IMG/VR virus record: IMGVR_UViG_3300025770_000063
Span: 1-32,072 of that record
Length of the DNA: 32,072 nt
From: a virus
Direction: 5' to 3' (one strand)
The position numbers were made by a program, and so were the translations under genes. Positions 1-10,516 of the stretch are shown here, one piece after another. Under the pieces are notes generated by a model. It searched no databases and was not told the DNA's origin. It saw nothing but the letters and a program-made list of their open reading frames with translations. The first letter of the stretch is position 1. Every line of letters starts with the position of its first letter.

Positions 1-259
1 GCCACACAGCATTGATGATGCACCCACGAATGACCGCGTGAACATTCTTGCGGCCTTCATCCCGCACACGCTGGTTGCCCTTTGGCCCGACAGCAAACTT
101 CACGGGGTACTTGGTATTGCCATCCATCACAACGCATAGGGCAGTACCTTCGACAAGGCCATTCTTGCGCACTGAGTAAACTACTTCGTCGCGATAGCGT
201 AGATTGCGATAAACTTCGCGCCCGAACGTTTTGACTGCATCTTTTAATGTAAAAGGCAT
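1..259 (-). CDS. hypothetical protein, 3' end beyond window
   Basis: Reading leftward from an ATG at 259, the frame stays open to the window edge (86 codons), so the C-terminus is missing. The product starts MPFTLKDAVKTFGREVY and continues with short polar stretches and a basic patch (VGPKGNQRVRDEGRKN). I do not recognise a family. It lies 6 bp downstream of the stop of the 266-445 gene and so is probably cotranscribed with it from the module A promoter at 470-506. Codon use and the uninterrupted frame make it a likely real gene. No function can be given. Confidence 0.7.
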   Translation of the reverse strand, partial: MPFTLKDAVKTFGREVYRNLRYRDEVVYSVRKNGLVEGTALCVVMDGNTKYPVKFAVGPKGNQRVRDEGRKNVHAVIRGCIINAVW

Positions 260-265
260 AATGTT

Positions 266-445
266 TTAGCTCACTTTCGAACGGTCAACGTAAACGTCGA
301 TTTCGTTTTCTGTCAATTCTAATTCTTCACCGTCTTGATCAATCACAACCACGGTGTCAAATTCTGTCACTTCGTCAACTATCATCAACTCCATACCCAC
401 GCGAACTTCGTCGCCCACTTTTACTTCTTGGTTTGCTATTTTCAT
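266..445 (-). CDS. small acidic hypothetical protein, 59 aa
   Basis: A 59-residue acidic protein (starts MKIANQEVKVGDEVRVGMEL, ends DVYVDRSKVS). The pattern KVGDEVRVG..L followed by short hydrophobic strands (MIVDEV, TVVVID) suggests a small beta-barrel of the SH3/KOW kind, but this is inference from pattern only. It is the first gene behind the module A promoter whose -10 (TATACT on the minus strand) is at 475-470, giving a leader of about 18 nt. The leader is purine-rich (TTAAGAATTATG) without a strong Shine-Dalgarno. Confidence 0.75.
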   Translation of the reverse strand: MKIANQEVKVGDEVRVGMELMIVDEVTEFDTVVVIDQDGEELELTENEIDVYVDRSKVS

Positions 446-469
446 AATTCTTAATCTTTAACTGCGTCT

Positions 470-506
470 AGTATATCATACGAGGTGGGACATTTGCAGT
501 CCTACC
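470..506 (-). promoter_or_regulatory. module A promoter, copy A1
   Basis: On the minus strand an imperfect palindrome (GGTAGGAC-N7-GTCCCACC, 506-484) is followed after 8 bp by the -10 TATACT (475-470), preceded by TGA as an extended -10. It fires toward the 266-445 gene. The stop TAG of the HAD gene lies inside the left arm of the box. No TTGACA-like -35 is present; the palindrome occupies that position, as expected for an operator or an activator-dependent promoter. The loop here is TGCAAAT, against GGCAGAT in the other leftward copies. Confidence 0.7.
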
Positions 507-954
507 TATTAAATTCTTTTTGGTCTTCACTCACTAGCTCACCCAGTTCGCCAAGCCCTTCAAGGTTGCGCGGGTCATTGTCTACCAGCTTGCGGGTCAA
601 CTCACGCACGAGGGCTTGCTTCTTTGCCACTACGCTCTTGCTGCTGACCTTAGCCCAATCGGCGGGTTGGTTGATGTCTACGCCTACGGTGAACACGTTG
701 CGGACATTGAAACCGAGCATCGACAGGGCGAGGCGAATGAACGGCGCGCTTAAGTCTCCGCGAGCGGTTAAGATGTCAAACGCTTTGCCGCTATCGCGAA
801 CCAGCACGCCCAATGGGGTGAGATCCTCTTCCTCTAGGTTAAGGATCGCGCTAGGGTTGGTGAAATCAAACAAACGCTTGGAGCCGCGCACCTCTTTGAT
901 GAGGGTTCCGTCTAAGTCGAATAAGGGTTTTAAAATGTCGTTCTTAACTTTCAT
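502..954 (-). CDS. HAD-superfamily phosphatase-like protein
   Basis: A 150-residue protein with the HAD signature in order: motif I FDLDGTLI (nucleophile Asp13, Asp15), motif II Thr63 in ILTARGD, basic residues around 106-112 as candidates for motif III Lys, and motif IV acidic pair in VDNDPRN (Asp115, Asp117). HAD enzymes hydrolyse phosphate esters through a phospho-aspartate. In phages such small members act on nucleotides or polynucleotide 3' ends; the substrate here cannot be told. No cap domain is apparent. The ATG lies only 7 nt after a -10 (TATACT, 967-962), so the mRNA is probably leaderless; motif I begins at residue 12, leaving no room for a later start. The C-terminus KEFNR-stop is shared with the 1414-1611 gene and runs into a module A box. 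Confidence 0.85.
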   Translation of the reverse strand: MKVKNDILKPLFDLDGTLIKEVRGSKRLFDFTNPSAILNLEEEDLTPLGVLVRDSGKAFDILTARGDLSAPFIRLALSMLGFNVRNVFTVGVDINQPADWAKVSSKSVVAKKQALVRELTRKLVDNDPRNLEGLGELGELVSEDQKEFNR

Positions 955-961
955 TACGAAT

Positions 962-990
962 AGTATAACTGAAAAAAACGAAAAAGTCGA
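962..990 (-). promoter_or_regulatory. module B sigma70-like promoter B1
   Basis: Minus-strand -35 TCGACT (990-985), 17 bp spacer, -10 TATACT (967-962). It drives the HAD gene, whose ATG starts 8 nt after the -10. The same -35, spacer length and -10 recur at 1619-1647, and at 2773-2801 with TACAAT. Confidence 0.65.
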
Positions 991-1032
991 GAACCAATTG
1001 TGTCATAAAAAAGAAAGTTTTTGCGTTTTAGG

Positions 1033-1069
1033 CTTGACATTCTGCCGGGCTGCCCGGCTACTTGTCAAG
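1033..1069. repeat. GC-rich inverted repeat of module B, copy B1
   Basis: CTTGACA (1033-1039) and TGTCAAG (1063-1069) flank a perfect odd palindrome GCCGGGC-T-GCCCGGC (1044-1058). It lies 42 bp upstream of the -35 of promoter B1. Neither strand shows the T-run of an intrinsic terminator directly after the stem. It is one of four such elements in the left arm. Confidence 0.8.
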
Positions 1070-1080
1070 GAAAAGTTATT

Positions 1081-1098
1081 CACATCTGCCGTCCTACC
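1081..1098 (-). repeat. truncated module A box (half copy A2)
   Basis: On the minus strand the GGTAGGAC arm plus loop of the module A box is intact (1098-1082), but the second arm is replaced by GAATAACTTTTCC, which belongs to the flank of the adjacent module B repeat. No -10 follows. It looks like a recombination junction between the two module types. Confidence 0.65.
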
Positions 1099-1115
1099 TT
1101 GTGACTTTCTTTTTC

Positions 1116-1184
1116 TTATCGTCTGCGTGGTTGTGGTCGGCTTGCTTTGCTCGTCGGGCTTATCATTATCGTTTTCGTTTTCAT
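1116..1184 (-). CDS. possible 22-aa basic peptide
   Basis: An ATG 5 bp after the stop of the 1190-1357 gene opens a 22-codon frame (starts MKTKTIMISP, ends PQPRRR). The preceding TAAAGAAT gives only a weak, too-close ribosome site. The stretch could instead be plain 3' untranslated sequence, so it is listed with low confidence. Confidence 0.2.
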   Translation of the reverse strand: MKTKTIMISPTSKASRPQPRRR

Positions 1185-1189
1185 ATTCT

Positions 1190-1357
1190 TTACTTCCAGC
1201 AATCACTTTCGTCAATTTCAAAATTCCAAGCGTCTTGGTCGTGGTCTCGGCAGTCATTGCCGAAGCTATCGTTTCGGACACCTGTAAAAGTTTCGTCTTC
1301 GTCGCTGTGCCAACCTCTGAAGGTTAGCTCGTTTGTGTTTTCATTTTTGTTTTTCAT
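1190..1357 (-). CDS. small acidic hypothetical protein, 55 aa
   Basis: A 55-residue, very acidic protein (starts MKNKNENTNELTFRGWHSDE, ends DESDCWK) with two cysteines and several Trp/Phe residues. No family is recognised. Very acidic small early phage proteins can be DNA mimics or inhibitors of host factors, but nothing here proves that. It sits directly behind module A copy A3, with -10 TATACT at 1387-1382 and a purine-rich leader (AGAAGATAAAGATTATG). The start is chosen because leader length matches the other module A genes. Confidence 0.65.
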   Translation of the reverse strand: MKNKNENTNELTFRGWHSDEDETFTGVRNDSFGNDCRDHDQDAWNFEIDESDCWK

Positions 1358-1381
1358 AATCTTTATCTTCTAACTGCGTCT

Positions 1382-1418
1382 AGTATAGCATACGAGGTGG
1401 GACATCTGCCGTCCTACC
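1382..1418 (-). promoter_or_regulatory. module A promoter, copy A3
   Basis: Minus-strand box GGTAGGAC-N7 (GGCAGAT)-GTCCCACC at 1418-1396, 8 bp, then extended -10 TGC-TATACT (-10 at 1387-1382). It drives the 1190-1357 gene. The TAG of the preceding gene (1416-1414) lies inside the box. Confidence 0.7.
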
Positions 1419-1611
1419 TGTTAAATTCTTTGAATCTTTCAAATCGTCCTTCCATCGGCTGAACCCTTGTGGTTCCCCATTTCTTTTTGGCAATCCGCTT
1501 GGCGTGTGCCAAGTCAAATGCCTTGATGTGGGTGGTGGTGGTAGTGCCATCGCTCCACGTGGCAATTCTTACTTCAAAAAGTTCGTCTTTCATTTCGTCT
1601 TTCATTTTCAT
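1414..1611 (-). CDS. small paralogous hypothetical protein, 65 aa
   Basis: A 65-residue protein with a beta-rich N-half (LFEVRIATWSDG) and an amphipathic helix segment IKAFDLAHAKRIA. The 4291-4485 product has the same layout (LFEV ... IKAYDVPHARRIA), so the two are paralogs; the 2293-2568 product is a weaker third member (IIEAPTLEIATARAK). The function is unknown. It is the single gene between promoter B2 and module A copy A3. The ATG lies 7 nt after the -10, suggesting a leaderless mRNA; in-frame ATGs at codons 3 and 7 are alternative starts. The C-terminus KEFNR matches that of the HAD gene. Confidence 0.8.
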   Translation of the reverse strand: MKMKDEMKDELFEVRIATWSDGTTTTTHIKAFDLAHAKRIAKKKWGTTRVQPMEGRFERFKEFNR

Positions 1612-1618
1612 TACGAAT

Positions 1619-1647
1619 AGTATACCTGAAAAAATCGTAAAAGTCGA
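1619..1647 (-). promoter_or_regulatory. module B sigma70-like promoter B2
   Basis: Minus-strand -35 TCGACT (1647-1642), 17 bp spacer, -10 TATACT (1624-1619). The sequence from here to the inverted repeat at 1690 is nearly identical to the B1 copy (shared GTGTCATAAAAAAGAAAG on the plus strand). It drives the 1414-1611 gene. Confidence 0.65.
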
Positions 1648-1689
1648 TCACCAATTGTGTCATAAAAAAGAAAGTTTTTTCACTTTAGC

Positions 1690-1729
1690 CTTGACATTTG
1701 GCCGGGCAGCCCGGCAGCCTGTTGTCAAG
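1690..1729. repeat. GC-rich inverted repeat of module B, copy B2
   Basis: CTTGACA (1690-1696) and TGTCAAG (1723-1729) flank GCCGGGC-A-GCCCGGC (1701-1715). It lies 42 bp upstream of the B2 -35. On the plus strand CTTTATTTTT follows the right arm, so termination of plus-strand antisense transcripts is possible for this copy. Confidence 0.8.
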
Positions 1730-1743
1730 CTTTATTTTTGCAT

Positions 1744-1818
1744 TTAATCGCGCCAGATGTAGTCGTCAACGTTCCAGCCTAGTATTATAATGGCGGCAAT
1801 AAGTATTAAGATAATCAT
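1744..1818 (-). CDS. 24-aa single-pass membrane peptide
   Basis: A start codon overlaps the stop of the upstream gene (TAATG, 1820-1816), implying translational coupling. The 24-residue product is one hydrophobic segment (MIILILIAAIIILGW) followed by a short acidic tail (NVDDYIWRD). This is typical of tiny phage membrane peptides. The function is unknown; inhibition of an inner-membrane host protein or a holin-like role would be guesses. It ends just before the B2 inverted repeat. Confidence 0.6.
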   Translation of the reverse strand: MIILILIAAIIILGWNVDDYIWRD

Positions 1819-2084
1819 TATGCCTCCACCATATCAAATGCGAATGTCTCACCTTCGTCGCTTGAGTAAATCTCAAACAGATTCTTGGTGATAGGGTTCC
1901 ACACTTGCACTGTTTCAAGGCTCGCGCCTTCGTCATCAAATGAATGCCAATTCATAATGTGATACGTTCCCATTGCGATAGGGTGCTTCACCCGCTTGTC
2001 AGTGCTGCGTCTGTGTAACGTCACCTTGCCTTGGCTCAAGTTGTTGGCATCGGTGTCTTCGTAGGTTGCTTCGTACTGTTTCAT
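1818..2084 (-). CDS. small paralogous hypothetical protein, 88 aa
   Basis: An 88-residue acidic protein. Its C-terminal half (HSFDDEGASLETVQVW ... SSDEGETFAFD) matches the 5728-5946 product on the other strand (RTFDDFGVTLESFKVM ... SNDDALTFFED) along FDD-G--LE---V and S-D---TF--D, so they are paralogs. The family and function are unknown. It follows the 2088-2279 gene by 3 bp and is coupled to the downstream 24-aa membrane peptide, all behind module A copy A4. Confidence 0.8.
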   Translation of the reverse strand: MKQYEATYEDTDANNLSQGKVTLHRRSTDKRVKHPIAMGTYHIMNWHSFDDEGASLETVQVWNPITKNLFEIYSSDEGETFAFDMVEA

Positions 2085-2087
2085 AAT

Positions 2088-2279
2088 CTAGTCTCTGTCT
2101 CTGATGTCGTTGCCTTCATCATCATTATAATAACCTTCCACGTTCCAAAGTTTATCATAGTCAACCTTTGGATATGCGACTTTGCCTTGCGGCGTGTCGT
2201 AGTGTGTTTGTTTGTTCACACCTTTGGCGTAAATCTCTTGAGCCAGTAGCTCCATCTTTTTGTTATATGTCATACTCAT
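2088..2279 (-). CDS. small hypothetical protein, 63 aa
   Basis: The frame is open further upstream, but the ATG at 2279 (MSMTYNKKMELLAQEIYAKG) is preferred. It follows a purine-rich AAGAGAT and leaves a short gap after the upstream gene's stop at 2293. The product is 63 residues with an N-terminal helix and an acidic tail (YYNDDEGNDIRDRD). The segment EIYAKG recurs as EIHAKG near the N-terminus of the 5422-5727 product, perhaps distant relationship. No known family. Confidence 0.75.
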   Translation of the reverse strand: MSMTYNKKMELLAQEIYAKGVNKQTHYDTPQGKVAYPKVDYDKLWNVEGYYNDDEGNDIRDRD

Positions 2280-2292
2280 AATTTTAAATCTC

Positions 2293-2568
2293 TTACATTT
2301 CCGAATAAGTGCCATCGTAGCAGCTTGGCTCATAAGCCTCTGGCTGCGCGTCATACCAAAACTCTTCGGAGGTGGGCATCATATCTGAAAAGTTATCCTC
2401 GATTTTTTGAGTGCTCTCCTGCACTTCGGATATGTCAAAAATGTAATGGTTTGCCGACTTGGCTCTTGCGGTGGCAATCTCCAAGGTTGGGGCTTCGATG
2501 ATGTAATTTCCGAGCTGGCCATAACGGCCTTCGGTTTCTACGTTGAAGGTTTTTATTTTGTTTTTCAT
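2293..2568 (-). CDS. small hypothetical protein, 91 aa
   Basis: A 91-residue protein starting MKNKIKTFNVETEGRYG, with a segment IIEAPTLEIATARAK that resembles the helix region of the 1414-1611 and 4291-4485 paralogs, then an acidic, Tyr-rich tail. An in-frame ATG at 2586 lies only 7 nt after the -10. The ATG at 2568 is chosen because the -10 to ATG distance then equals that of the other module A genes. It is the first gene after copy A4. The function is unknown. Confidence 0.75.
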   Translation of the reverse strand: MKNKIKTFNVETEGRYGQLGNYIIEAPTLEIATARAKSANHYIFDISEVQESTQKIEDNFSDMMPTSEEFWYDAQPEAYEPSCYDGTYSEM

Positions 2569-2592
2569 ATCTGTTTCAATTATCATAAGTCT

Positions 2593-2630
2593 ATTATAGC
2601 ATAGAGGGTGGGACATCTGCCGTCCTACCC
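2593..2630 (-). promoter_or_regulatory. module A promoter, copy A4
   Basis: Minus-strand box with arms extended by one pair (GGGTAGGAC-N7-GTCCCACCC, 2630-2606), then extended -10 TGC-TATAAT (-10 at 2598-2593). It drives the group 2293-2568, 2088-2279, 1818-2084 and 1744-1818. Confidence 0.7.
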
Positions 2631-2631
2631 T

Positions 2632-2742
2632 TTAACTTTCGCAAACCTCAACCCACTCATCTTCTTCGTTGGTTGCGGGGTGAACGGTAACCTCGAAAGG
2701 CCCGAATGTGAATGTCTCTTCTCTGTTGTTTTCTTCGTTCAT
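2632..2742 (-). CDS. 36-aa acidic hypothetical protein
   Basis: A 36-residue acidic protein (starts MNEENNREETFTFGPFEVTV, ends VEVCES). It is the single gene between promoter B3 and module A copy A4. Its stop lies 1 bp from the box, as in the other cassettes. A GAGAG-type ribosome site precedes the ATG (GAGAGTGAGAGAAACAAGATT), and almost the same leader precedes the 4549-4713 gene, supporting the start. No known family. Confidence 0.7.
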   Translation of the reverse strand: MNEENNREETFTFGPFEVTVHPATNEEDEWVEVCES

Positions 2743-2772
2743 AATCTTGTTTCTCTCACTCTCAATATAAAG

Positions 2773-2801
2773 ATTGTATCACAGAAAAACAGAAAAGTCG
2801 A
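2773..2801 (-). promoter_or_regulatory. module B sigma70-like promoter B3
   Basis: Minus-strand -35 TCGACT (2801-2796), 17 bp spacer, extended -10 TGA-TACAAT (-10 at 2778-2773). It drives the 36-aa gene with a leader of about 30 nt. Confidence 0.65.
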
Positions 2802-2854
2802 GCACAAACCAGGTAAGTTATTAACATTTATTTTGCTATTGTGAGTATTTAGTT

Positions 2855-2891
2855 CTTGACATTTGGCCGGGCAGCCCGGCGGCCTGTCAAG
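2855..2891. repeat. GC-rich inverted repeat of module B, copy B3
   Basis: CTTGACA (2855-2861) and TGTCAAG (2885-2891) flank GCCGGGC-A-GCCCGGC (2866-2880). It lies 53 bp upstream of the B3 -35 and downstream of the 2920-3525 gene. The spacer toward the promoter shares AAGTTATTAACATTTATTT-like sequence with the B4 copy. Confidence 0.8.
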
Positions 2892-2919
2892 GAAAAGTTA
2901 TTAACAGTCTTCGGGGTTT

Positions 2920-3525
2920 TTACTTGTTGAAAAGATAACTCATAGTGCTGTGAAACCGCGAGGAGATAAGCAATTTAATCCAACAGTCCTTACCGACGCG
3001 CGGATGTGCCTTCCGCAAGGAGCCGTTTTTGGTGACCGTCTGCTTCCATTCGTCCCGTCTATACAATTCAAGGATTACTTTACTAGGAATCTCCCACCAT
3101 TCAAGCAGTCCCTTTTCACGCACTAGCGAGGTGTCGCATATAAGAAACATATCCACTTTAGAGCATTTAAATTCAATCGCCTTGTTTACTTCGGGGCCGT
3201 CCAGCCTCCGAATTGCGTCACTCGAATTCACAAAACATACCGTCGAGGAGGGCAGAGTAAAATCGCGAGTACGGATTTCCCACTTTTCACCATTGCCCGC
3301 AACAGCGTCCCAAGCTGCGTGCGAGCATTCGGCGGCGAGTCCGATATACGTTTGAAAATCTGCCTCAACCTCGAAACCAGTACTTGAATTGCCGCTGTGG
3401 CTCCGTTTATATTTTTTTAAAAGCTTATTGTGTTCAATCATAAAACTGGAATAGCCAATGCCGTGAGTGATTTCCTTACCTCTATAGTAAGCAATTTCTT
3501 TGGTAATGTTTTGCAGTGATTTCAT
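2920..3525 (-). CDS. hypothetical protein, possibly nuclease-like
   Basis: A 201-residue protein with no family I can name firmly. The middle shows acidic residues (FEVEADFQTYIGLAAE) and then a strand ending IEFKCSKVDMFLI. E-F-K followed by Lys could be the E-x-K half of a PD-(D/E)xK nuclease core, but this is pattern-level inference. It has two Trp-rich spots (EWWEIP) and a basic C-terminal third (KNGSLRKAHPRVGKD). It starts 10 bp after the secreted HExxH gene and ends before repeat B3. No Shine-Dalgarno precedes the ATG. Confidence 0.75.
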   Translation of the reverse strand: MKSLQNITKEIAYYRGKEITHGIGYSSFMIEHNKLLKKYKRSHSGNSSTGFEVEADFQTYIGLAAECSHAAWDAVAGNGEKWEIRTRDFTLPSSTVCFVNSSDAIRRLDGPEVNKAIEFKCSKVDMFLICDTSLVREKGLLEWWEIPSKVILELYRRDEWKQTVTKNGSLRKAHPRVGKDCWIKLLISSRFHSTMSYLFNK

Positions 3526-3535
3526 ATTAATTTAC

Positions 3536-4090
3536 TTATTTAAATTGTGAATCCCATTTTGCTTGAGAGTATCCAAGATTTAACCCCATCCCTCTGCGAT
3601 AGCGTATAAGCGTGGGATGAATCCCGCACTTTCTGCCGTAGACTACTGCCGTCCATTGGGCCGCGCCTTCACCTGTGTGGCGAGTGTCGCAATGTTTAAA
3701 CTCGTGCAATAGTGAAACGGTCACCGTTGAGGTTAGCCCGTGGCTTAAATTCCTATCTCCAATGGCTATACTAGCAGCAGAAGGCCAAGCAACTGATCCT
3801 GCGTTATTAACTTTTGGATCACAGTTATGGATGATTGACTTAACGCCCCGCTGGCCAACTGCGTACATATAGGGAGATCCTTTTTCAATGATCTTTAAAT
3901 GCTTAACGATTCTGTTATGGAAAAAGATATCGCCCCGTATCTTCCACCCGTCATAGGTGCGCACTACTGAGCAGGGGTCAATGCCAGTATAAGGCTGGCG
4001 CAGTAAAGCCCTGCGATCCTTCGGCGTAAGCTCAGCAGAGGCGAGGGTGGTGAGCAGTAGCGATGCGATTATTAGGTTGATTGTTTTCAT
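3536..4090 (-). CDS. exported HExxH metallopeptidase-like protein
   Basis: A 184-residue product with a clear N-terminal signal peptide (MKTINLIIASLLLTTLASA, cleavage near residue 19-20) and a zinc-peptidase HExxH motif, HEFKH (His119, Glu120, His123), followed by CDTRHTGEG, where His128 or Glu131 may be a third ligand. Four or more cysteines suit a periplasmic, disulfide-bonded enzyme. The open frame extends upstream to 4189, but the start at 4090 is chosen because the signal peptide begins there, just after the 4095-4262 stop. Export implies action on the host envelope, for example in lysis, superinfection exclusion or protein degradation. Which of these cannot be told. Confidence 0.8.
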   Translation of the reverse strand: MKTINLIIASLLLTTLASAELTPKDRRALLRQPYTGIDPCSVVRTYDGWKIRGDIFFHNRIVKHLKIIEKGSPYMYAVGQRGVKSIIHNCDPKVNNAGSVAWPSAASIAIGDRNLSHGLTSTVTVSLLHEFKHCDTRHTGEGAAQWTAVVYGRKCGIHPTLIRYRRGMGLNLGYSQAKWDSQFK

Positions 4091-4094
4091 AGTC

Positions 4095-4262
4095 TTAGGC
4101 CCATTCTCCTGTGCTGTGGATGTACCAGATAGGGTAAACCTTTTCGTTAGCGTATACGGGGTGGTGCATCTTAAAGTTTTTAAGCGCACCTGCCTTGTCG
4201 AATCCGCAAGTGTTGAACGTGAGTCCGTTGCGCAAGTTGATTGTGTATTTGAGTCCTTTCAT
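4095..4262 (-). CDS. small basic hypothetical protein, 55 aa
   Basis: A 55-residue protein (starts MKGLKYTINLRNGLTFNTCG, ends WYIHSTGEWA), rich in aromatic residues, probably a small beta-sheet fold. A good ribosome site AGAAGGA sits 10 nt upstream of the ATG. It lies between the 4291-4485 gene and the exported HExxH gene (4 bp from the latter's start) in one leftward group. The family is unknown. Confidence 0.75.
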   Translation of the reverse strand: MKGLKYTINLRNGLTFNTCGFDKAGALKNFKMHHPVYANEKVYPIWYIHSTGEWA

Positions 4263-4290
4263 AATCTTTTAATCCTTCTCTGTTGAATTT

Positions 4291-4485
4291 TTATCGTTCC
4301 ATACTTTCTTCGTAGGTTAGCACTCTTGTGCCCTTGCTACCTTCTCCAATGAGCTTGATCTTTACGCCTTTGCAGTAAAGCCTTTCAGCAATACGCCTAG
4401 CGTGTGGGACATCGTATGCCTTGATAAAGCCAAGGGTTGCATCCCCATCAAACGTGAGGACTTCAAATAGTGTTTCTGTTTTCAT
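4291..4485 (-). CDS. small paralogous hypothetical protein, 64 aa
   Basis: A 64-residue protein. LFEVLTFDGDATLGFIKAYD and then PHARRIAERLYCKG align with the 1414-1611 product (9 of 13 identical over IKAxDxxHAxRIA), so they are paralogs in different cassettes. An in-frame ATG at 4503 would lie 7 nt after the -10. The ATG at 4485 is chosen because the spacing then matches other module A genes, and its leader is nearly identical to that of 2293-2568. It is the first gene of the group 4291 to 2920. The function is unknown. Confidence 0.78.
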   Translation of the reverse strand: MKTETLFEVLTFDGDATLGFIKAYDVPHARRIAERLYCKGVKIKLIGEGSKGTRVLTYEESMER

Positions 4486-4509
4486 ATCTGTTTCAATTAT
4501 CATAAGTCT

Positions 4510-4546
4510 ATTATAGCGTAAGAGGTGGGACATCTGCCGTCCTACC
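4510..4546 (-). promoter_or_regulatory. module A promoter, copy A5
   Basis: Minus-strand box GGTAGGAC-N7-GTCCCACC (4546-4524), 8 bp, then -10 TATAAT (4515-4510). The leader to the gene start is almost the same as after copy A4. It drives 4291-4485 and probably the genes down to 2920. Confidence 0.7.
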
Positions 4547-4548
4547 CT

Positions 4549-4713
4549 CTAACTTTCTTCATCCTCTACAGGGTGGAGGAAAGGGCCGAGGTGGGCGTTA
4601 TCCCGTTGCCATTGTCGGGCGAGTTCCCGCACTTGTTGCACGGATTCGTTCCAGCGTTGCACACGGGCCTCGGCCCTGCGTTGCTCTTCTTGTACTTCTT
4701 GTTCAGTTCTCAT
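4549..4713 (-). CDS. small charged helical protein, 54 aa
   Basis: A 54-residue protein (starts MRTEQEVQEEQRRAEARVQR, ends PVEDEES), almost entirely Glu/Gln/Arg-rich and predicted helical, probably a coiled coil. The function is unknown. It is the single gene between promoter B4 and module A copy A5, with its stop TAG 2 bp from the box. A GAGAG ribosome site precedes the ATG (AAAGTGAGAGACGAATG). Confidence 0.72.
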   Translation of the reverse strand: MRTEQEVQEEQRRAEARVQRWNESVQQVRELARQWQRDNAHLGPFLHPVEDEES

Positions 4714-4737
4714 TCGTCTCTCACTTTCAATAGGGAA

Positions 4738-4766
4738 AGTATAGCATAGCAGCGACTGAATTACAA
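4738..4766 (-). promoter_or_regulatory. module B sigma70-like promoter B4
   Basis: Minus-strand -35 TTGTAA (4766-4761), 17 bp spacer, extended -10 TGC-TATACT (-10 at 4743-4738). It drives the 4549-4713 gene and points away from the plus-strand promoter at 4911-4939. Confidence 0.62.
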
Positions 4767-4818
4767 GAAAAATCGCACCAAGTTATCAACATTTATTTGC
4801 GCATTGTGGACATTTTAT

Positions 4819-4857
4819 GCTTGACTTCCTGCCGGGCTGCCCGGCCAAATGTCAAGC
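4819..4857. repeat. GC-rich inverted repeat of module B, copy B4 (divergent centre)
   Basis: GCTTGAC (4819-4825) and GTCAAGC (4851-4857) flank GCCGGGC-T-GCCCGGC (4831-4845). It lies between two divergent promoters, 52 bp from the minus-strand -35 and 53 bp from the plus-strand -35. No gene ends here, so a terminator role for this copy is unlikely. Confidence 0.8.
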
Positions 4858-4910
4858 TTTATTTACCAACAATCGTAAGTTTTTTTGTGAACATTTACCC
4901 AGGATTTATC

Positions 4911-4939
4911 TTTACTTTTGCGGCTATTTATGGTTTAAT
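4911..4939 (+). promoter_or_regulatory. divergent promoter for rightward small genes
   Basis: -35 TTTACT (4911-4916), 17 bp spacer, extended -10 TGG-TTTAAT (-10 at 4934-4939). The ATG of the next gene follows after 7 nt, the same distance as in the leaderless minus-strand genes. Confidence 0.55.
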
Positions 4940-4946
4940 ACTAACA

Positions 4947-5144
4947 ATGAAAGCGACAATGACAGCAGGAACATTAGTTCACCACAGAGACAACCCACAA
5001 TGGCGCGGCGTTATCGTGCGCGACCTCGACCCACGCAAGCCAGTCAATGGCGTTGTACTGTTAAACCACAACGGGCGAGTGGCTCGGATGCATAAAGATT
5101 TATTGAGAAAGGTTACTAGGTGGGACAGCGGATGTCTTACCTAG
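4947..5144 (+). CDS. small basic hypothetical protein, 65 aa
   Basis: A 65-residue protein (starts MKATMTAGTLVHHRDNPQWR). The pattern GTLVHHRD...GVIVRDLD...GVVLLNHNGRV suggests a small SH3-like barrel (inference). The frame is open upstream to 4797, but the ATG at 4947 is chosen because it follows the promoter by 7 nt and the upstream part runs through the repeat. It has no Shine-Dalgarno and is probably leaderless. The C-terminal codons (TRWDSGCLT) are encoded by the forward module A box, whose end abuts the TAG. Confidence 0.7.
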   Translation: MKATMTAGTLVHHRDNPQWRGVIVRDLDPRKPVNGVVLLNHNGRVARMHKDLLRKVTRWDSGCLT

Positions 5145-5155
5145 TGTGCTATACT
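5119..5155 (+). promoter_or_regulatory. module A promoter, copy A6 (forward)
   Basis: GGTGGGAC-N7-GTCTTACC (5119-5141), 8 bp, extended -10 TGC-TATACT (-10 at 5150-5155). Orientation relative to the driven gene is the same as in the leftward copies. The arms differ in sequence but still pair fully if G-T wobbles are allowed. It drives 5178-5414 and following genes. Confidence 0.68.
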
Positions 5156-5177
5156 ATACGCATAACAAATTAAGAAT

Positions 5178-5414
5178 ATGAAAAACAACTACAACATAGG
5201 ACAGACAGTAAGCCGCTACGGTGTGCTGGGAACCATCACAGCAATCACAGCAGACGCTCGCACAGGTGAGCAGGAAAGCATCATCGTGCGCTTCGTATGG
5301 AGCGACAAAGGACACGAGTACAAGGTCAACGACCCTGCTATCTCAATCCCTGAAGTGCTTCCCTCGTGGATGACCCGCGAAGGCGATACCTTAACCATCA
5401 GCGACAGAGACTAA
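5178..5414 (+). CDS. small hypothetical protein, 78 aa
   Basis: A 78-residue protein (starts MKNNYNIGQTVSRYGVLGTI). Alternating hydrophobic strands (GVLGTITAIT, ESIIVRFVW) and a GQTVSRYG turn suggest a small beta-barrel, like some SH3-like phage proteins, with no firm family. It is the first gene after the forward module A promoter. The leader TTAAGAATATG resembles that of the 266-445 gene. It is followed after 7 bp by the 5422-5727 gene. Confidence 0.78.
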   Translation: MKNNYNIGQTVSRYGVLGTITAITADARTGEQESIIVRFVWSDKGHEYKVNDPAISIPEVLPSWMTREGDTLTISDRD

Positions 5415-5421
5415 AACGATT

Positions 5422-5727
5422 ATGAGAGACGTACAACATTATTATACCGAGATCCACGCAAAGGGATTTCGTCACACAAACAAGTTCAGCGGATTTGATT
5501 CTGCTTGCGCTCACTTTAGCACACGGGCCAGAGTTGGCACGATGACCTTTCAGCAAGCCAAGATGGATGCTGTCAAGTACATCGGTGACCAGCAAGTGTC
5601 ACACGGTTGGCTTGACTATACCGTTGGCAAGACCTACGAACAGACAGGCACGGAAGAAGTCACAGCGATGTGTCCCTCTTACTCTGAAGGGCATCGCAGC
5701 AACCCAGTATTCGAGGAGGTAAAGTAA
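5422..5727 (+). CDS. hypothetical protein, 101 aa
   Basis: A 101-residue protein (starts MRDVQHYYTEIHAKGFRHTN) of unknown family, mixed polar, with a few aromatics and one Cys near each half. Weak similarity of EIHAKG to EIYAKG in the 2088-2279 product is noted. Its stop is immediately followed by the start of the next gene (TAA ATG), so the two are coupled. A ribosome site GAGGTAAAG inside its end serves the next gene. Confidence 0.78.
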   Translation: MRDVQHYYTEIHAKGFRHTNKFSGFDSACAHFSTRARVGTMTFQQAKMDAVKYIGDQQVSHGWLDYTVGKTYEQTGTEEVTAMCPSYSEGHRSNPVFEEVK

Positions 5728-5946
5728 ATGAGAAACATCAACGCAACACTAGACACAGACGAAAAGTATATGACCATCGAGGGCGTACTGCACTCGGTCA
5801 TCGGTCACCGTACCTTCGACGACTTCGGCGTAACTCTTGAAAGCTTCAAGGTTATGGATGTGATGGCTAACGTGCGCGTGATTCATAGCAATGATGATGC
5901 GCTGACATTCTTCGAGGATGAATTTCCTCCCACTCGCAAAGTTTAA
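5728..5946 (+). CDS. small paralogous hypothetical protein, 72 aa
   Basis: A 72-residue acidic protein. RTFDDFGVTLESFKVM and SNDDALTFFED match the C-half of the 1818-2084 product on the opposite strand, so this is the rightward paralog. The function is unknown. It begins directly at the stop of the preceding gene, with GAGG about 8 nt upstream. A 7-bp hairpin (AACCTTG ... CAAGGTT, 5945-5967) covers its stop codon. Confidence 0.8.
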   Translation: MRNINATLDTDEKYMTIEGVLHSVIGHRTFDDFGVTLESFKVMDVMANVRVIHSNDDALTFFEDEFPPTRKV

Positions 5947-6001
5947 CCTTGTATCACAATCAAGGTTGAAGTAAACTAAAGAAAGTAAAGGAAACAAAAC
6001 T

Positions 6002-6196
6002 ATGAAGATGAAAGAGATTAGAAATGGCTCATTGTATTTCAATGAGGAAAGCAACAGGGTTGAGCGTGTCGTTGGAACCATCAGCGACCAGCGGGTGGTT
6101 ACTTACGTTCACAAGAAGGACTTTAGTTACCCGCAAGCAAAAAAGTTGCGCGTTGCAGAAAGTGACGAATTTAATAGTTATTTGAGGCGCGATTAA
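6002..6196 (+). CDS. small basic hypothetical protein, 64 aa
   Basis: A 64-residue basic protein (starts MKMKEIRNGSLYFNEESNRV, ends FNSYLRRD). Its layout (short strands, then a segment DFSYPQAKKLRVAE) recalls the helix region of the small paralogs of the left arm, but the similarity is weak. A good ribosome site AAAGGAAA precedes the ATG by 8 nt. It is the last gene of the rightward small-gene group and is followed by a strong hairpin. Confidence 0.75.
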   Translation: MKMKEIRNGSLYFNEESNRVERVVGTISDQRVVTYVHKKDFSYPQAKKLRVAESDEFNSYLRRD

Positions 6197-9443: not shown

Positions 9444-9827
9444 ATGAACATTTATTGCCAATCATGCGGTCAGCCCAATAATTACGGCTCCAAAAAACCT
9501 AAATTCTGCAATAGTTGTGGAATTTCACTAGACGGCTCAAAAGCCAGCGTCAAGCCTCAAAAAAAGCCAAAAGCAGAGGTAAAGCCAAAAATTTCAGCCT
9601 TAGAGCTAGATTATGGAGATTCTGAAGATTCCCAGTCTATTCCAAATATCACCCGAATCGAAGCGGATATACAAACCGATAGAGTGAGGGGGGTTAAATT
9701 GGGAGAAATCGCTGGGACCCTAACGTCTCCAGAAGAAGACCAAATTCCTGCCCCACCACCGTCAAAGGACGCTTTAGGCGACCTGACAAAAGAGGGCGGC
9801 TCTATCAGGCCGAAGGGAAGCAGTTAA
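9444..9827 (+). CDS. zinc-ribbon protein
   Basis: A 127-residue protein. The N-terminus is a zinc ribbon (Cys5, Cys8, Cys22, Cys25; YCQSCGQ ... FCNSCGI); a Lys/Pro-rich linker and an acidic, Pro-rich tail follow, ending PPPSKDALGDLTKE and a basic end. Such proteins commonly act in protein or nucleic-acid contacts. Its stop overlaps the start of the sigma-like factor (TAATG), so the two are translationally coupled. That makes a role alongside transcription plausible but unproven. Probably leaderless start. Confidence 0.8.
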   Translation: MNIYCQSCGQPNNYGSKKPKFCNSCGISLDGSKASVKPQKKPKAEVKPKISALELDYGDSEDSQSIPNITRIEADIQTDRVRGVKLGEIAGTLTSPEEDQIPAPPPSKDALGDLTKEGGSIRPKGSS

Positions 9828-10516
9828 TGCCCGAAGAAAAAAAACGGCCCAAGTTTGAAGATAGCATTGACACAATTAACCAAGAAATTAGAAAACGTAG
9901 GAACAAGTGGAATCTTACGGCTTTAGCTTGGATGGATTTCGATGATGTATCTCAAATACTAAGGATTCACATATTTAAAAAATGGGAGATGTATGACCCA
10001 TCTCAGCCCCTTAGCCCCTGGATAAACAGGATCATATCCAATCAAATCAAAAACCTAATAAGAAACAACTACGGCAATTTTACTAGACCCTGCCTAAAAT
10101 GCGCTGCCGCAGAAGGCTCTAACCATTGTTCTATATATGTTGATCAAGACTCCAAATGCCCCCTATACGCAAAATGGGAAAAAACAAAAAAACGAGCCCA
10201 CGACGCTAAGTTGCCGTTGGCCCTAGAGAATCACACTAAAGAGGTTTCGTCTATGTCCTCAGACTTTTTTGACGTAGAGAGAGCGGCTGTTAAATTGCAC
10301 GAGAAGATGAAAGTGGTCCTGAAAGCTAACGAGCTTCAAGTTTACGAACTGCTTTACGTAGAGAACCTAGAGGAAGAAGAGGTGGCCAAGAGGATGGGAT
10401 ATAAAACCACAGAAAAAAATAGACAGCCTGGTTATAAGCAAATCAAGAACATCAAAAAGTCTATATTGGTCAAAGTCAAGAAAGAGCTGGATAAGAATGG
10501 TATAGATATTTTTTAA
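9827..10516 (+). CDS. phage sigma-factor-like protein with cysteine cluster
   Basis: A 229-residue protein with sigma70/ECF-like layout. Residues about 34-80 (MDFDDVSQILRIHIFKKWE, then SPWINRIISNQIKNLIRNN) match the pattern of region 2 (D-D-x-x-Q, then W-x-x-R-I--N-). Residues about 160-220 (LQVYELLYVENLEEEEVAKR and following basic helix) fit region 4. Between them is an insert with Cys89, Cys92, Cys101 and Cys111, a likely metal site. It probably directs host RNA polymerase to late phage promoters, analogous to T4 gp55. It lies in an overlapping operon with packaging genes. Unusual: the cysteine cluster. Confidence 0.7.
   Translation: MPEEKKRPKFEDSIDTINQEIRKRRNKWNLTALAWMDFDDVSQILRIHIFKKWEMYDPSQPLSPWINRIISNQIKNLIRNNYGNFTRPCLKCAAAEGSNHCSIYVDQDSKCPLYAKWEKTKKRAHDAKLPLALENHTKEVSSMSSDFFDVERAAVKLHEKMKVVLKANELQVYELLYVENLEEEEVAKRMGYKTTEKNRQPGYKQIKNIKKSILVKVKKELDKNGIDIF

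Follow-up and report, generated by a model that had tools for sequence, protein, structure and literature searches.

Phages are known to carry shuffled promoter cassettes, and WYL regulators have been described as switches of DNA-damage and defence responses. The stretch analysed here, IMG/VR virus record IMGVR_UViG_3300025770_000063, was taken at the full 32,072 bp of the record (the window) and contains an arm of small genes headed by repeated modules of two kinds, an inverted repeat followed by an extended -10 box (A) and a GC-rich hairpin followed by a sigma70-type promoter (B). The closest described counterpart of A belongs to the SOS-independent DNA-damage response of Caulobacter crescentus, in which the WYL regulator DriD, a homodimer activated by single-stranded DNA (ssDNA), binds the site ATACGAC-N7-GTCGTAT; this site overlaps the -35 region at a constant distance to the -10 box, G-14 is conserved, the -35 is poor, and driD is adjoined by a divergent promoter (PMC12340889). 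DriD is triggered in Caulobacter by linear DNA that results from the packaging of a gene transfer agent (PMC9632790). PafBC, which works by sigma adaptation in mycobacteria, is also switched on by ssDNA (PMC11804915). Control of phage transcription by a host DNA-damage regulator has been described for phage GIL01 (PMC4551915), and repeated promoter-bearing intergenic modules among shuffled small genes are found as PeSL in T4-type phages (cf. PMC4503421).

Like the DriD promoters, A contains a GAC-N7-GTC pseudo-palindrome that overlaps the -35 region, a constant distance between dyad and -10, a poor -35 and the conserved G of an extended -10. We propose, with a probability of about 0.68, that A is a DriD-type promoter activated by a WYL regulator and taken from the host, which is probably verrucomicrobial, that it is likely switched by ssDNA, and that B and its family-wide counterpart P are immediate promoters. 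This suggests that the phage listens to the DNA-stress signal of its own host. The parts of this proposal differ in strength, and the weights given to them are our judgement: regulation of A by a WYL protein is quite probable, Verrucomicrobiota are the probable host phylum, activation as the mode of action follows slightly behind, and for ssDNA as the signal, which is argued by analogy, the odds are even.

The compared systems also differ from A. The outer bases of the half-sites are GGT/ACC in A and ATA/TAT in DriD sites; A-type sites occur in phages and Verrucomicrobiota, and their putative targets comprise small genes of the phages as well as cas3, VWA genes and genes of unknown function. 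PafBC promoters resemble A in that a WYL regulator acts together with the housekeeping sigma factor in the absence of a proper -35; however, PafBC is a heterodimer that recognises a -26 motif (PMC11804915), whereas A is a symmetric dyad that would suit a homodimer. GIL01 is a temperate phage with LexA as repressor, whereas here we find many repeated sites, a putative activator and apparently lytic phages. In the literature searched, which included few subscription journals and therefore gives a weak negative, there was no precedent for a gene array of a lytic phage on WYL-type promoters.

Sequence and geometry of A

A consists of a 23-bp dyad, GGTRGGAC-N7-GTCYYACC, followed after a fixed 8 nt by the extended -10 TGNTATACT and usually 6 nt further on by an ATG. 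The alignment of 84 copies from relatives of the window phage gave the consensus GGTAGGACtGCGGATGTCCCACCCcnTgTGcTATACTAnACGCATGA, with almost no variation in the half-sites GGT-GGAC and GTC--ACC. The distance from the end of the dyad to the -10 is 8 nt in 78 of the 84 copies, the TG of the extended -10 is present in 80, and 58 have exactly 6 nt between -10 and ATG; there is no TTGACA-like hexamer 17 nt upstream of the -10. Judging from normal start-site distances, transcription behind A would start at the start codon itself.

A was present in 50 IMG/VR stretches, mostly relatives of the window phage, and heads many different small genes; a few of these stretches (e.g. L027, L033, L042 and L055) are without a -10 and look like chance matches. 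In 20 related records A (up to two mismatches) occurs only within a single small-gene region, and the control that was read backwards had no matches. Among 30 terminase relatives whose upstream sequence covers 6.5 kb or more, 14 contained A there (control 0); in the remaining ones the arm may be located farther out. Of 82 genes preceding A, 62 end between -40 and +8 relative to the dyad, and 36 of these have their TAG stop inside the GGTAG of A. The LexA/SOS box is not matched by A, since the LexA dyad of Verrucomicrobia is TGTTC-N4-GAACA and the dyad of A is GGAC-N7-GTCC.

The dyad beside WYL genes of Verrucomicrobiota

A scan for the exact dyad in 84,980 bacterial and archaeal species genomes returned five stretches, three from Verrucomicrobia, one from a phage-like contig in a Flammeovirgaceae metagenome-assembled genome (MAG) and one from a Spirochaetes MAG. 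Two of the Verrucomicrobia records have longer flanks, namely Opitutaceae EW11 (L161) and Verrucomicrobia Bin_38_5 (L164), and in each of them the dyad is next to a gene encoding an HTH_11-WYL-WCX protein. Homologs of this regulator are present in 55 of 289 sampled Verrucomicrobiota genomes, and it contains the same WYL-WCX core as DriD. Profile E-values were 1.3e-31 for PafBC, 2.1e-23 for DriD, 2.4e-8 for CapW and 1.5e-6 for BrxR, and on this measure the regulator is far closer to PafBC and DriD than to BrxR or CapW.

The flanks of 71 WYL genes were searched independently of the phage consensus, and 19 of these loci contain GAC-N7-GTC-N13-TAnnnT. Other loop lengths gave 0 to 4 loci, shuffled sequences 0.3 and sequences read backwards none. 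A spacing of 12 was found in seven loci and every other spacing besides 13 in 0 to 3, while each of the remaining 63 of the 64 triplet dyads occurred in three loci or fewer. Most of the host sites are located 50 to 130 bp upstream of the WYL gene on the divergent strand, which is comparable to the divergent promoter beside driD, and the ATG follows 6 to 9 nt after the -10, a placement resembling that in phage A. Genome-wide, the extended element had 45 sites compared with nine in the control in 30 genomes that were selected because they carry closer WYL homologs, whereas 35 genomes without this homolog had 14 sites and 13 in the control.

The genes behind the host sites encode Cas3 (L213; HD and helicase domains), VWA proteins, glyoxalase, ARPP-1 and conserved proteins of unknown function. 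In L211 the downstream open reading frame (ORF) combines a Cas3 HD stretch with a glycosyltransferase and is perhaps an assembly chimera, so that L213 alone is counted as cas3. It is likely that the HTH-WYL-WCX regulator of Verrucomicrobiota heads an uncharacterised regulon of its own, with cas3, VWA, glyoxalase and unknown genes as possible targets. In many Verrucomicrobiota (L179-L208, L272-L311) a conserved HTH-WYL-WCX regulator is accompanied by a divergent DriD-like promoter. About ten A-like sites were seen in one Verrucomicrobiales MAG (G023; L173-L176, L216, L237); two of these lie upstream of related ORFs that are phage I-like by impression, have no Pfam match and perhaps belong to another phage lineage.

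Mode of action and alternative explanations

Several results weigh against a host WYL regulator acting as activator at A. The distance from GTC to the -10 is 13 nt in A compared with 10 to 11 nt estimated from DriD promoter sequences (PMC12340889), thus about 2 to 3 nt longer, with the DriD -10 assigned by our own reading, and the two geometries are therefore alike without being the same. The strict element is present in only about one in four WYL loci, and the genome-wide excess in 27 carriers of more distant WYL homologs is weak (23 sites versus 17 in the control). The GGT/ACC-flanked consensus with up to one mismatch occurs in only one of 388 Verrucomicrobiota genomes; for finding host sites this pattern was too tight. 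A homolog of the phage terminase is absent from 388 Verrucomicrobiota genomes, a result that a strictly lytic phage would also give and that is uninformative as to the host. Finally, the 14 phage records tested contain no WYL gene (one match was below threshold and had stops); a WYL regulator carried by the phage itself is thus not supported, and the factor would have to come from the host.

Instead of activating, a WYL regulator could bind A as an operator for repression, as BrxR (PMC9122601) and CapW (PMC9122588) do at inverted repeats, and host or phage would thereby silence the A units until a signal arrives. The spacing to the -10, fixed in the phages and with its sharp peak at 13 in the host loci, is what one would expect of an activator touching RNA polymerase; in addition A is without a usable -35, and the regulator family has its nearer relatives in DriD and PafBC, with BrxR and CapW more distant. 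We therefore regard repression as unlikely, although the dyad lies over the -35 region, a usual position for repression, and an extended -10 could function without an activator. Even less probable is a factor encoded by the phage, either the gp55-like sigma protein (9827-10516(+); phrog_1740, E 2.6e-5) or an unrecognised DNA-binding protein, with the likeness to the host WYL sites being convergence. The presence of this sigma-like protein and the failure to find a WYL gene in the phage records would fit such a factor, but host WYL genes are accompanied by sites that agree with A in dyad, loop length, spacing, extended -10 and position of the ATG, and A boxes are restricted to the small-gene arm and do not extend to late genes. 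A PeSL-like composite, in which an RNA hairpin serves as terminator of the upstream gene in front of an ordinary extended -10 promoter, is very improbable and was rejected on mismatch statistics, as an A.C mismatch is present in the sense-strand stem of 56 of 84 copies compared with 53.4 expected under independent variation; in addition, a U tract is lacking (2.7 T in 8 nt) and the element also occurs in divergent intergenic regions of the host, where there is nothing to terminate, even though upstream genes frequently end at or inside the dyad (62 of 82) and the 23-mer can fold as RNA (-8.3 kcal/mol).

With a host WYL activator at A, expression of the small-gene arm could proceed as follows. 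B and P, being ordinary sigma70 promoters with a hairpin upstream, would fire at once on the host RNA polymerase. A would be an activator-dependent extended -10 promoter lacking a -35, its GAC-N7-GTC dyad bound by a PafBC/DriD-like WYL regulator of the host. If this regulator behaves as DriD and PafBC do, ssDNA arising from damage to the host genome or from phage replication or packaging may load the WYL dimer, which would then hold RNA polymerase on the A promoters, and the A units would form a second expression wave coupled to DNA stress. In both classes, many transcripts would begin at the ATG or close to it. Since promoters and genes recombine at the modules, a gene could move between the immediate and the stress-gated class.

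If true, this would provide a concrete route by which a phage reads the DNA stress of its host, it would give a host clue for an uncultured marine phage group (Verrucomicrobiota, whose phages are poorly known), and it would define a WYL promoter element open to experiment in a phylum whose regulator of this kind appears uncharacterised. This site type precedes cas3 in one genome and an ORF with a Cas3 HD domain in another, which leads to a tentative further idea, which we rate somewhat below even odds: the Verrucomicrobiota WYL regulator might be an alarm for infection and DNA stress that controls defence-related genes, and a large family of marine phages might time its second wave of small genes by the same promoters, possibly titrating the regulator off the defence genes as the phage genomes multiply.

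B and P promoters and the shuffling of cassettes

The B palindrome in the window, CTTGACA..GCCGGGCWGCCCGGC..TGTCAAG, is predicted to form a strong hairpin and is followed about 42 to 53 nt downstream by the promoter, TCGACT or TTGTAA, 17 nt, and TATACT or TACAAT. It is limited to a few close relatives, with 10 copies in the 70,305-bp record IMGVR_UViG_3300025676_000014, a nearly identical phage (terminase identity 100%) that served to extend the window. Although the B hairpins are strong, the B4 palindrome is located between two divergent promoters and thus cannot act there as a terminator alone. The family-wide counterpart of B is the sigma70 module P, TTGACWTTT-N-TATATT (TTGACW-17-TATATT); in 126 kb, sigma70-type promoters numbered 64 in forward and two in reverse direction. 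Upstream of P one often finds TTGTGAATAACTTT and further hairpins, among them TGAGACTnAGTCTCA; the latter represents a second hairpin type that replaces the GCCGGGCWGCCCGGC palindrome upstream of P in L143, L146, L152 and L154. Upstream of sigma70 promoters we also noted TGTGAATAACTTT (P modules across the family, e.g. L152, L154 and L146; window 1075-1085(-)), which contains TTATTCACA, a match to the DnaA-box consensus TTATNCACA. There are 64 copies in 126 kb, compared with 6.8 expected from shuffles. Across the family most A and P units have their ATG about 5 to 10 nt downstream of the -10. This proximity in both classes predicts leaderless or near-leaderless mRNAs across the small-gene arm.

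The sequence-only reading of this DNA had compared the array with PeSL. For B and P the comparison is apt, as both combine a hairpin with a promoter (here the hairpin is located upstream of the promoter), but it fails for A, in which the dyad is not under selection for RNA pairing; moreover, the sequences are unrelated and there are two promoter classes. The T4-type early promoter sequence is matched by neither the A nor the P consensus.

The same reading had placed A and B modules in strict alternation over five cassettes and had considered such an order unlikely by chance. The modules were found where it had located them, five as full A boxes and four as B hairpins with promoters; a sixth A, A2, is present as only half a dyad (1084-1098(-)). 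They are not chance occurrences, but their order in the window is only weakly improbable (by our own arithmetic, perfect alternation of four A and four B corresponds to 2 of 70 label orders). In relatives alternation is not a rule: a permutation test over 16 independent phage regions, which together carry 61 A boxes, gave 53 alternations versus 52.9 expected (p 0.55), so that a family rule was rejected and strict alternation is a local feature of the window. Where P is followed by A, most often just one gene stands between them (P-gene-A, 18 of 30), but runs of the types A-gene-A and P-gene-P are also frequent and as common as alternation. Genes in the relatives were called with a simple codon-score script, and the boundaries of the transcription units are approximate.

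That the arm is a modular array of small transcription units, each under its own promoter, and that genes and units are swapped among relatives, was on the other hand borne out. The small-gene families are reshuffled across the 16 phage regions, and for F0, F1, F3, F5, F6, F8, F20, F21, F35 and F36 the promoter immediately upstream is A in one phage and of the sigma70 type in another; F3, for example, is driven by B1 in the window (502-954(-)) and by A in relatives. A fusion scar between A2 and B1 is visible at 1070-1130(-), where, read from 1130 to 1070, the C-terminal tail of a foreign gene of the F25 type (HNHADDKKKKVTR with its stop) is followed by the half A dyad and then by TGTGAATAACTTTTCCTTGACA, with an ATGTG junction leading into TGTGAATAACTTT..CTTGACA. 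Gene families under both promoter classes together with this scar support cassette shuffling, and exchange at the A and B modules among relatives is well supported. A chimeric small gene was also seen in L153, where the F25 gene (3162-3447, region reversed) ends in the tail of window gene 4291-4485 (GSKGTRVLTYEESMER). The role of A mainly as a homologous boundary could not be upheld, since its dyad is instead a putative regulatory site common to WYL loci of Verrucomicrobiota.

In the window, the B4 palindrome (4820-4856) lies in the divergent intergenic region, and leftward of it the B4 promoter TTGTAA-17-TATACT (4738-4766(-)) precedes the single gene F14 (4549-4713(-)). The putative WYL-type promoter A5 (4510-4546(-), score 52.0) heads the group 4291-4485, 4095-4262, 3536-4090 and 2920-3525 (together 2920-4485(-)). 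B3 follows with its palindrome (2855-2891), the promoter TCGACT-17-TACAAT (2773-2801(-)) and the single gene F35 (2632-2742(-)), and then A4, likewise a putative WYL-type promoter (2593-2629(-), score 60.3), with the group 2293-2568, 2088-2273 and 1818-2084 (1818-2568(-)). The B2 palindrome (1690-1729) and promoter TCGACT-17-TATACT (1619-1647(-)) head the single gene F0 (1414-1611(-)), whose TAG stop lies inside the putative WYL-type promoter A3 (1382-1418(-), score 61.8), and behind A3 is the small gene F16 (1190-1357(-)). The B1 palindrome CTTGACA..GCCGGGCWGCCCGGC..TGTCAAG (1033-1069) and promoter TCGACT-17-TATACT (962-990(-)) precede the single gene F3, HAD-like by eye (LFDLDGTL), which has its TAG stop inside A1; this last putative WYL-type promoter (470-506(-), dyad 484-506, -10 TATACT, score 57.7) would drive 266-445.

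All of these single genes end at or inside the A dyad, as had been claimed, with stop offsets of -2, -2, +5 and +5, and on the rightward side gene 4947-5144(+) ends just past the dyad of A6. The plan of promoter, single gene, A6 and gene group is indeed repeated there, with A6 (5119-5155(+), putative WYL-type, score 56.3) followed by 5178-5414, 5422-5727, 5728-5946 and 6002-6196 (5178-6196(+)). The rightward sigma70-type promoter read from the sequence, TTTACT-17-TTTAAT (4911-4939(+)), is however not a copy of B and is not equipped with a separate hairpin.

PHROGs and Pfam gave no family match for the small genes of the A/B array, Rfam and tRNA scans found nothing, and no isolate phage matched the window at the DNA level. 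The right side of the window encodes PhoH, terminase, the sigma-like protein and further phage genes; terminase and portal have only distant matches (about 22 to 30% identity) in Bacillus, Clostridioides, Staphylococcus and Microcystis phages. At the left end, gene 2-259(-) is alone in having a match, to Phage_L5_gp82 (PF25735, 1.1e-9; phrog_586), which is otherwise found in mycobacteriophage L5.

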